Below, in pieces: positions 54,684 to 57,734 of a DNA stretch of 64,000 nt (the stretch's first letter is position 1; every line of letters starts with the position of its first letter). This DNA is from Paracoccaceae bacterium (GTDB taxonomy: Bacteria > Pseudomonadota > Alphaproteobacteria > Rhodobacterales > Rhodobacteraceae): positions 1 through 64,000 of the forward strand of contig JAIXPH010000030.1 of assembly GCA_027486345.1 (NCBI GenBank). The letters are read 5' to 3'. The notes under the pieces are model-generated. The model worked only from the letters and a program-made list of their open reading frames with translations, was not told the origin of the DNA and searched no databases. The position numbers and the translations under genes are program-made.

Positions 54684-55148
54684 TCAGAATGCCGCAGGCT
54701 TGGCCTCGCGTGCCATGTGATCCAGCACGCCGTTGACGAATTTCGATTCCTTGCCTTCGGGGAAAAAGGCCTTGGCGACATCGACATATTCGGTGATCGC
54801 CACCTTGGGCGGCGTGTCCATGTCCACGAACTCCGCCCCCGCCGCGCGGAAAAGGGCCCGCAGCACCGGGTCGATGCGGTCGATGGGCCATTTCGCCACA
54901 AGGGCGCGGTCGGTCAATTGGTCGATCTTGGCCTGCCAGTTCACCGCCGAACCGACGATGGCGCGGAAATGGTCGACATCGCCTTCGACGAACTCACCCT
55001 CGTCATAGGTCGCGCCAAAGCGGTGCGATTCAAACTCGCGCGTGATGGCCTGCACCGTCTGGCCGGAGCTTTCCATCTGGAACAGCGCCTGCACGGCATA
55101 AAGCCGGGCTGCGGATTTCATCTGGCGCTTTTCGGCGGTGCTGGTCAT
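54684..55148 (-). CDS. nusB: Transcription antitermination factor NusB
   Basis: A 154-residue all-helical protein. It begins MTSTAEKRQMKSAARLYAVQALFQME, and the VAITEYVDVAKAFF and FVNGVLDHMAR helices are the NusB hallmarks. With NusE/S10 it binds boxA RNA in rRNA leaders. ATG at 55148 overlaps the ribH-like stop (ATGA); an ATG 12 codons earlier would lie inside that gene. The conserved rib-nusB order is typical of proteobacteria. Confidence 0.95.
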   Translation of the reverse strand: MTSTAEKRQMKSAARLYAVQALFQMESSGQTVQAITREFESHRFGATYDEGEFVEGDVDHFRAIVGSAVNWQAKIDQLTDRALVAKWPIDRIDPVLRALFRAAGAEFVDMDTPPKVAITEYVDVAKAFFPEGKESKFVNGVLDHMAREAKPAAF

Positions 55149-55570
55149 GGTCGGAATCCGATCCCCTTTGTCTGGCCCGCCCACTTGCGCGAAATGGCGA
55201 TCAGATGCAAGGCCGCAAGGCAGGCTGCGTCCCCCGCCGCTTCGGTGGCCTGTTGCGGGCCTGAGACAACGGCATTCCCGACCGAGGCGCCTTGCAACCC
55301 GATCAGCGCCAAGGTGCGGCCGATCTCGGCCGCGCCATCCGACTGGCCAATCACCACATGCCCGTCAAACCGCGCCTGCCGTTCGGCTATCGCCACAAGG
55401 GCGGGCAATTCCAGTGCGCGGGGCATATCGATCACCTCGACTTCCGCCCCTGCCGCCGCGGCGCGGGCGCGCGCACCGGCGAGCAGCGCCGTGCAATCCT
55501 GATCACGCGCGACCGAGAACAGCAGTTTCACAGGCCTGTCGAAAACTGGCAGCGTGATGGCATCGGTCAT
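55145..55570 (-). CDS. ribH: Degenerate lumazine synthase-like protein (RibH homolog)
   Basis: A 141-residue protein in the ribH position. The N-terminal VKLLFSVARDQDC, the middle AGARARAAAAGAEVEVIDMP and the C-terminal AALHLIAISRKWA.. GIGFRP follow lumazine synthase, but the catalytic segment is broken: where family members have GCVIRGAT(T/P)H(Y/F)E, this reads GQSDGAAEIGRTLAL, about 10 residues shorter and without the catalytic histidine; the GILT-type phosphate loop reads GNAVVSGPQQAT. It is unlikely to make lumazine, although the fold and the operon place are kept. A frame is intact from ATG 55570. Another ribH may exist elsewhere in the genome. Confidence 0.7.
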   Translation of the reverse strand: MTDAITLPVFDRPVKLLFSVARDQDCTALLAGARARAAAAGAEVEVIDMPRALELPALVAIAERQARFDGHVVIGQSDGAAEIGRTLALIGLQGASVGNAVVSGPQQATEAAGDAACLAALHLIAISRKWAGQTKGIGFRP

Positions 55571-55628
55571 GGTCTGGCGGTCCCCGTTCTGGCCCGGCAA
55601 AAGGCGGTTGCGACTGTTCTGCGCCCCG

Positions 55629-56228
55629 TCACACGCCCCACTCCCGCAGGCGTGCCACGTATCGGGCCATGGTGTCCACCTCGAGGTTGACCTTGTCGCC
55701 CAAGGCGACCTCGTCCCATGTCGTGGCCTTTTGTGTGTGGGGAATGAAGTTGATGCCGAAATCGGTGCCCTCCACCTCATTCACCGTCAGCGAGGTGCCA
55801 TTCAGCGCGACCGACCCTTTGGGCGCGATGAAGCCCGCCAGATGATGCGGGGCGCGGAAGGTCACGCGCAGGCTGTCGCCTTCGGGCCGCAGCGCCACCA
55901 CCTCGGCCAGACCATCGACATGGCCTGACACGATATGACCGCCCAATTCGTCCCCCACCTTCAGCGCGCGTTCAAGGTTCAGCCGCTTGCCGGGGGTCCA
56001 GCCGCCGATGGTGGTCTTGGACAGCGACTCGGCCGAGATTTCCACGTCGAACCAGTTCTGCGGCGCGCGGCCCAGCGCGATGACGGTCAGGCACACGCCG
56101 TCGCAGGCGATGGAGGCGCCGATGTCGATGCGCTCCACATCATAGGAGGTGCCGATCCGGGCGCGCAGGTCACCCCGCCGTTCGGTTTCCAGCACCTTGC
56201 CGATGTCGGTGACGATCCCCGTGAACAT
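55629..56228 (-). CDS. ribE: Riboflavin synthase, alpha subunit
   Basis: A 199-residue enzyme that dismutates two lumazine molecules to riboflavin. Two internally repeated barrels start with MFTGIVTDIGKV and IVSGHVDGLAEV; the SIACDGVCLTV and SVALNGTSLTVNEV substrate loops are conserved. GGAGGGAAGC precedes the ATG. No FMN riboswitch was recognised upstream. It is the first gene of the run ribE, ribH-like, nusB. Confidence 0.95.
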   Translation of the reverse strand: MFTGIVTDIGKVLETERRGDLRARIGTSYDVERIDIGASIACDGVCLTVIALGRAPQNWFDVEISAESLSKTTIGGWTPGKRLNLERALKVGDELGGHIVSGHVDGLAEVVALRPEGDSLRVTFRAPHHLAGFIAPKGSVALNGTSLTVNEVEGTDFGINFIPHTQKATTWDEVALGDKVNLEVDTMARYVARLREWGV

Positions 56229-56441: not shown

Positions 56442-57734
56442 ATGCGTGTGTCAGGCCAAGGCCGTACCTTTCTGTTCCTGCAAGGGCCGCATGGGCCCTT
56501 TTTCCAGCGGCTGGGCGCCATGCTGCAAGCTGCCGGCGCGACGGTGCGGCGCGTCGGGTTCAATCGCGGCGACCGGGCGTTCTGGACCGATGACGCGACC
56601 TTCCTGCCCTATCGCGGCCCGTTGCAGGATTGGCCGCAGGCTCTGGATGCTCTGCTCACCGCCCATGCCGTGACAGATATCGTGCTTTATGGCGACACGC
56701 GGCCCCTGCATGCCACCGCCGTGGCGGCGGCGCGGGCGCGCGGCCTGACCGTGCATGTGTTCGAGGAAGGCTACCTGCGCCCCTATTGGATCACCTATGA
56801 ACGCGGCGGATCGAACGGCCATTCGCGCCTGATGGACCTGAGCGTGGCGCAGATGCAGGCCGCCTTGGCCAATACCGATACCGACCAGCCCGACGCCCCG
56901 GCCCGCTGGGGCGACATGCGCCAACACATCTTCTGGGGGGCGCTCTATCACTGGTTTGTCTGGTCGGGCGGCTTTTTCGATTTCCGCAATTACCGCCCGC
57001 ATCGGGAAATCACCGTCTGGCAGGAATTCCTGCTGCATTGCAAACGGCTGGTGCTGCAACCGGTGCATCGCTGGCAGCGCATGGCCGCCACCTTCCGCAT
57101 CCGGCATGGCGGCTTTCCCTATCACCTCGTGCTGTTGCAGCTGGAGCATGACGCCAGTTTCCGTGCCCATTCCCCCTTTGCCAGCATGACCGACTTCGTG
57201 GCCACCGTGATGGACGGCTTTGCCCGGGGGGCCGCCCCGCATCACCATCTGGTGTTCAAGGCACACCCGCTTGAGGATGGTCGCGCGCCGCTGGCGCGGG
57301 AAATCGCGCGGCAGGCCCGCGCGCATGGCATCGAGAAACGCGTGCATTTCGTGCGCGGCGGCAAGTTGGCGCAACTCTTGAACCATGCCCGCAGCGTGGT
57401 GACGGTCAACTCCACCGCCGCGCAGCAGGCCTTGTGGCGCGGTCTGCCCACACGCACCTTCGGCGCAGCGGTCTATGCCAAACCGGAGTTCGTCTCTTCC
57501 CAACCCCTGCCGGAGTTCTTTGCCCAGCCCAGCCGTCCCGACAGCCGCGCCTATCGCGATTATCGCCGCTATCTGCTTGAAACCAGCCAGATTGCCGGGG
57601 GGTTCTACTCGGCCAAGGGCCGCCGTGAGCTGTTGCGGCAGGTGGTGGACATGATGCTGTCCCCCGAAGACCCTTATGACGCGTTGCAATCGGGAAACGC
57701 GGCACCTCGGCAACAGTTGCGGCTGGTGAAGTGA
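56442..57734 (+). CDS. kpsS: Capsular polysaccharide export/synthesis protein KpsS-type
   Basis: A 430-residue predicted Kdo glycosyltransferase of the KpsS family. It begins FLFLQGPHGPFFQRL and has ITYERGGSNGHSR, HLVFKAHPLEDGRAPL and VVTVNSTAAQQALWRGLPTR, the last two being the retained donor-binding region. KpsS starts the poly-Kdo lipid linker of ABC-dependent capsules. ATG at 56442 is used; a GTG at 56433 is possible. It is divergent from ribE and followed by kpsD-like and kpsC genes. Confidence 0.88.
   Translation: MRVSGQGRTFLFLQGPHGPFFQRLGAMLQAAGATVRRVGFNRGDRAFWTDDATFLPYRGPLQDWPQALDALLTAHAVTDIVLYGDTRPLHATAVAAARARGLTVHVFEEGYLRPYWITYERGGSNGHSRLMDLSVAQMQAALANTDTDQPDAPARWGDMRQHIFWGALYHWFVWSGGFFDFRNYRPHREITVWQEFLLHCKRLVLQPVHRWQRMAATFRIRHGGFPYHLVLLQLEHDASFRAHSPFASMTDFVATVMDGFARGAAPHHHLVFKAHPLEDGRAPLAREIARQARAHGIEKRVHFVRGGKLAQLLNHARSVVTVNSTAAQQALWRGLPTRTFGAAVYAKPEFVSSQPLPEFFAQPSRPDSRAYRDYRRYLLETSQIAGGFYSAKGRRELLRQVVDMMLSPEDPYDALQSGNAAPRQQLRLVK

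Follow-up and report, generated by a model that had tools for sequence, protein, structure and literature searches.

The riboflavin operon of the Paracoccaceae bacterium analysed here (assembly GCA_027486345.1, contig JAIXPH010000030.1) carries, at the place of the type I lumazine synthase gene, a derived gene that we designate ribH*. Comparison with related genomes suggests that the operon copy of RibH1 underwent a single conversion, in the ancestor of a clade of three genomes, into a protein predicted to be no longer a lumazine synthase, and that it has probably been kept since then as a pseudoenzyme that serves the riboflavin module by its structure or by binding a ligand. As such, ribH* appears to be a clear case of an essential-pathway enzyme that became, without leaving its operon, a conserved and apparently non-catalytic protein. 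The three clade genomes also lack a recognizable 3,4-dihydroxy-2-butanone 4-phosphate (DHBP) synthase, which implies either a partly unknown vitamin B2 route or vitamin B2 import in these bacteria.

Operon context and family membership of ribH*

The features of the operon in the window, i.e., the whole stretch of 64,000 nucleotides that was analysed, are listed in Table 1. In the window's own genome (G000) and in its two clade relatives (G203 and G211), the kpsS-like gene is followed by ribE, ribH*, and nusB, without ribBA; in G104, a congener read gene by gene, the order is the kpsS-like gene, then ribE, an unassigned frame, ribBA, ribH, and nusB. The initial annotation had proposed that both translational couplings of ribH* are intact. 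This holds towards nusB, whose start overlaps the ribH* stop in an ATGA (55145-55148), but not upstream, where the gene begins 58 bases after the ribE stop and ribBA is missing.

Table 1. Coordinates, strand, and supporting evidence of the genes in and around the riboflavin operon of the window
Feature	Position	Strand	Evidence or remark
nusB	54684..55148	(-)	PF01029, 104 bits; ATG overlaps the ribH* stop
ribH*, 141-aa protein derived from RibH1, active-site segments of lumazine synthase missing	55145..55570	(-)	Open reading frame, profile matches, and alignment
ribE-ribH* gap, 58 bases	55571..55628	(-)	Site of ribBA in congener G104; no PF00926 match in the genome
ribE, riboflavin synthase, first gene of the operon	55629..56228	(-)	PF00677, 160 bits; NF006767, 228 bits (cut-off 155)
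Divergent capsule-export gene, kpsS-like (named by eye)	56442..57734	(+)	Adjoins ribE also in G203, G211, and G104

The ribH* product matched the NCBIfam model NF000814 with an E-value of 9.2e-15 and 54.7 bits, below the cut-off of 174, and Pfam PF00885 with 18.3 bits, below the cut-off of 26.7. Its identity to full-length relatives was 50-53% for 10 of 11 and 45% for the remaining one. This homology, real but weak, together with the place between ribE and nusB, argues for descent from RibH1. Considered as a type I lumazine synthase enzyme, the protein falls below the curated cut-offs and lacks both the catalytic His loop and the Arg/Lys segment.

Loss of the active-site segments and predicted structure

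The extent of the losses was determined from an alignment of 58 loci, composed of 3 short rows and 55 full-length rows, the latter representing 53 distinct sequences (two pairs of identical copies). All three short rows have lost nine residues of the His loop, two residues of the first loop (APYYRDIADN becoming ARDxDC), and nine residues of the segment TVENxxQAxVRADPxGQNKGG, which contains a conserved Arg and Lys. The motifs GETTH and KG occur in 55/55 full-length rows and in none of the short ones, PGALE in every full-length row is PRALE in every short one, and the first aromatic pair is deleted or changed. In lumazine synthase, the conserved Arg and Lys of this second segment have a role in phosphate binding, and we take the segments lost in ribH* to be the substrate-contacting segments of the Bacillus subtilis enzyme. 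The replacement and shortening of the catalytic His segment described in the initial annotation is thus confirmed, with nine residues gone, and the C-terminus was correctly recognized as intact; the flanks, also held to be intact, carry the two further deletions and the change from GALE to RALE.

A structural model of ribH*, built from an input of 12 sequences of which 11 were active-type relatives, reached a mean pLDDT of 76.5 and a pTM of 0.78. When this model was used to search the PDB, the top solved matches were lumazine synthases, with a best E-value of 3.4e-4 and a modest TM-score of about 0.6. The medium-confidence model supports the view that ribH* would keep the lumazine synthase fold.

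Distribution and selection of the short form

Within the genus, matches to ribH* were found in 19/19 genomes, with the short form in three (G000, G203, and G211, whose completeness is 97.8, 95, and 91%, respectively) and the full form in 16. One genome of the genus, G207, measures 1.5 Mb at 96% completeness, the others being 3.2 to 4.7 Mb. The ribH* of G203 and G211 is 86-87% identical to that of the window, compared with 53-57% for the 16 full-form congeners, and the comparison of orthologs proposed earlier identifies the loss as a clade feature. In a sample of the family, 189 of 198 genomes gave a match to ribH*; among the matches listed, only that of G000 spans the whole query in 423 bases.

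Within the clade, the dN/dS values of ribH*, obtained from three related sequences, were 0.139, 0.111, and 0.114, compared with a median of 0.133 for full-length RibH1 (45 pairs from 10 congeners); those of the neighbouring genes were 0.035-0.047 (ribE) and 0.031-0.055 (nusB). Judged by these ratios, ribH* is a selected protein, under purifying selection at the level of full-length RibH1. In trees of RibH and NusB, the branch leading to the clade has about 6.4 and 0.12 changes per column, respectively. At 103 columns, neither the 16 congeners nor the clade show any internal variation; the clade agrees with the congeners in 56 of them, carries a different residue in 30, and has a deletion in 17, the placement beside gaps being uncertain. 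Because a burst of change was followed by constraint, the pattern points to a changed function rather than decay. With the catalytic residues gone (GETTH in 0/3 versus 55/55 rows) and selection kept (dN/dS of 0.11-0.14), ribH* is most likely a pseudoenzyme, in agreement with the original description of a retained RibH homolog without its active site. No published pseudoenzyme of lumazine synthase and no description of this clade were found in titles and abstract openings, a search with most subscription journals outside its coverage.

A second lumazine synthase behind an FMN riboswitch

The suggestion to search the genome for a second ribH proved well founded. A single PF00885 match was obtained in the window's own genome; it lies on another contig and corresponds to a RibH2 of 145 aa. 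It is of type II according to NF009084 (219.6 bits, cut-off 160), is nearest to the Brucella RibH2 1t13, and keeps the motifs ARWHAD (Trp motif) and GGIYRH (catalytic His). Its gene is preceded by an FMN riboswitch (RF00050, 115.4 bits), and its identity across the clade is 95-97%. In the genus, FMN riboswitches were found in 3/19 genomes, namely the three clade members, with two per genome. The second one precedes, in each of them, the gene of a 298-aa EamA-family transporter, for which no match to the named riboflavin transporter models was obtained. Since the best 29 riboswitch loci of other genera comprise ribH2 in 22 and an EamA gene in 7, these two appear to be the usual FMN-riboswitch genes of the family. 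Directly 3' of ribH2, a gene encoding an HpaI-like aldolase is situated in G000 (L165 8282-9106, contig C39) and G203 (L077 2138-2875), and the G211 contig ends too soon after ribH2 to show this neighbour. The aldolase was rejected as a general C4 source, as it occurs in 0/22 ribH2 riboswitch loci of other genera, loci that reach ~1.5 kb past the riboswitch.

Absence of DHBP synthase in the clade and in a few other genomes of the family

The domain PF00926 (DHBP synthase, RibB) was detected in 0/3 clade genomes versus 16/16 congeners, and the same search recovered DHBP synthase in 14/14 controls. RibE, RibH2, and a RibA-like protein are present in all three clade genomes, with ribE intact in each. 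RibD is encoded in G000 (346 bits, cut-off 156) and G203; no RibD was detected in G211, which is 91% complete. The initial annotation had concluded that another ribH must supply lumazine; RibH2 does exist, but the missing DHBP synthase had been overlooked. Since the C4 substrate is known to come from this enzyme, lumazine has to be made here with a C4 unit of other origin, unless import takes the place of its synthesis. Non-enzymatic lumazine formation, or diacetyl as a C4 source, was also considered.

In the family sample, 9/198 genomes lack PF00926, five of them less than 90% complete (G028, G033, G115, G124, and G142). Among the 174 good genomes, those without it are G000, G095, G120, and G127; in all four, and also in G115, an FMN riboswitch stands directly before RibH2. 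By comparison, RibH2 was inferred, by the criterion of at least two PF00885 matches, in 60/170 good PF00926-bearing genomes. Fisher tests against RibB absence gave P = 0.017 for RibH2 and 0.022 for the riboswitch, values that rest on four genomes and ignore shared descent. One of the four, G127 (98% complete), contains a riboswitch-led operon ribH2-ribE-ribA-ribD without ribB (L171 3207-5897). Another, G120, matched ribH* with an E-value of 5.1e-12, at a location that was not found. The incomplete genomes G033, G124, and G142 showed neither a PF00885 nor a ribH* match and may represent auxotrophs or assembly gaps.

The genome G115, which belongs to another genus and is 81% complete, also lacks PF00926, and its sole PF00885 match scores as its RibH2. 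It is matched by ribH* at an E-value of 2.2e-10 and may hold a second degraded RibH1; a RibH1-like gene was not found by tblastn in about 1.17 of its 2.5 Mb. Among its loci (L172, L191, and L173), ribE is located in L191 and a RibA-like gene in L173. There, ribE adjoins a kpsS-like gene, and neither ribH nor nusB follows.

Proposed role and comparison with known systems

In the mechanism that we propose, RibH2 would make lumazine when FMN is low, with a C4 donor coming from a source other than RibB, and RibH1 would thereby have been free to lose its site. The remodelled protein, possibly a pentamer, might then act as a binding protein for a flavin or lumazine, or for RibE or a further Rib protein; the assembly partner put forward in the initial annotation is a candidate only. 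Such a binding role within the riboflavin module seems most likely, by analogy, because RibH1 of Sinorhizobium meliloti is reported to bind other pathway proteins in two-hybrid tests (PMC9478397). More tentatively, and with somewhat less than even confidence, riboflavin could be made in these bacteria without a DHBP synthase of any known kind: the RibB-less genomes of the family carry an FMN-riboswitched RibH2, the RibH1 site may be dispensable, and the remodelled RibH1 could be a working part of the route, as a carrier, a scaffold, or even a C4-supplying enzyme.

The arrangement resembles the RibH1 and RibH2 pair of Brucella and the Rhizobiales, described as a type I RibH1 in the rib operon and a separate type II RibH2 that has an FMN riboswitch (the RFN element), where either protein alone suffices for growth of Brucella (PMC2828483). 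The clade differs from that pair in having neither the active-site segments of RibH1 nor a DHBP synthase. S. meliloti and B. abortus, both of which carry RibH1 and RibH2 (PMC9478397, PMC2828483), are reported to stay riboflavin prototrophs without ribBA, and, according to the authors, what replaces RibB there has yet to be discovered (PMC9478397). The clade shares this RibBA-less state, although the deletion of ribBA in those organisms was made in the laboratory, with no alteration of RibH1 reported (PMC9478397), whereas the loss in the clade is natural. Unless riboflavin is imported, the clade genomes may thus be natural counterparts of the RibBA-less S. meliloti. The identity of the RibB replacement in alphaproteobacteria that are prototrophic after ribBA deletion is presented as an open question in the same report (PMC9478397), and comparing natural RibB-less genomes with RibE, a RibA-like protein, and RibH2 to their RibB-bearing congeners could reveal the missing enzyme.

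Alternative explanations

It is unlikely, though worth weighing, that the clade no longer makes riboflavin and takes it up by means of the EamA-type transporter encoded behind the FMN riboswitch, with RibE, RibD, RibH2, and ribH* as remnants or serving other purposes, ribH* maybe as a flavin-binding protein. The lack of PF00926 in 3/3 genomes, the RibD not found in one of them (G211, 91% complete), and the riboswitch before the EamA gene in all three would fit such a loss. A membrane transporter gene immediately preceded by an FMN riboswitch also recalls the ImpX/RibN riboflavin transporters (PMC4418817); unlike these, the EamA gene of the clade matches no named riboflavin transporter model and is a candidate only. 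Import is opposed by the dN/dS of ribE (0.035-0.047), by a RibH2 that is 95-97% identical across the clade and itself FMN-riboswitched, and by the operon of G127, which likewise lacks PF00926. Moreover, ImpX was restricted, in the survey of PMC4418817, to bacteria that also have biosynthesis genes, a point that would bear on the EamA gene only if it were an ImpX.

A conversion of ribH* into a new pathway enzyme, e.g., the missing C4 supplier replacing the adjoining lost ribBA, is very improbable. The loss of ribBA and the remodelling of ribH did affect one and the same operon in each of the three genomes, and the burst of change followed by constraint would suit a new activity. However, G095 and G127 have neither PF00926 nor a ribH* match, so the absence of RibB does not require ribH*, and we know of no precedent for a C4-supplying enzyme with the lumazine synthase fold.

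Just below this in probability stands a decaying gene retained merely as a translated leader for nusB. The ATGA overlap with nusB would be in keeping with it; the purifying selection acts at the protein level, and around the remodelled site (segment 68-103) 34/36 sites are invariant in the clade, both of which argue against a leader. Plain decay was rejected on the basis of dN/dS. An assembly or frame error, conceivable in genomes that consist of many contigs, is refuted by G203 and G211, which show the same gene, frame, and neighbours at 86-87% identity.

GTP cyclohydrolase II genes

A stand-alone GTP cyclohydrolase II is present in 3/3 clade genomes. That of G000 passed the ribA domain model (215.1 versus 205.85 bits) and missed the long-form equivalog (265 versus 464), and the stand-alone protein may have its role outside riboflavin synthesis. 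In four congeners (G201, G205, G208, and G209), a second GTP cyclohydrolase II is situated ~2.4 kb from a RibD_C-domain protein (open frames of 285 to 381 aa), a pair that perhaps belongs to a separate pterin- or flavin-like pathway.
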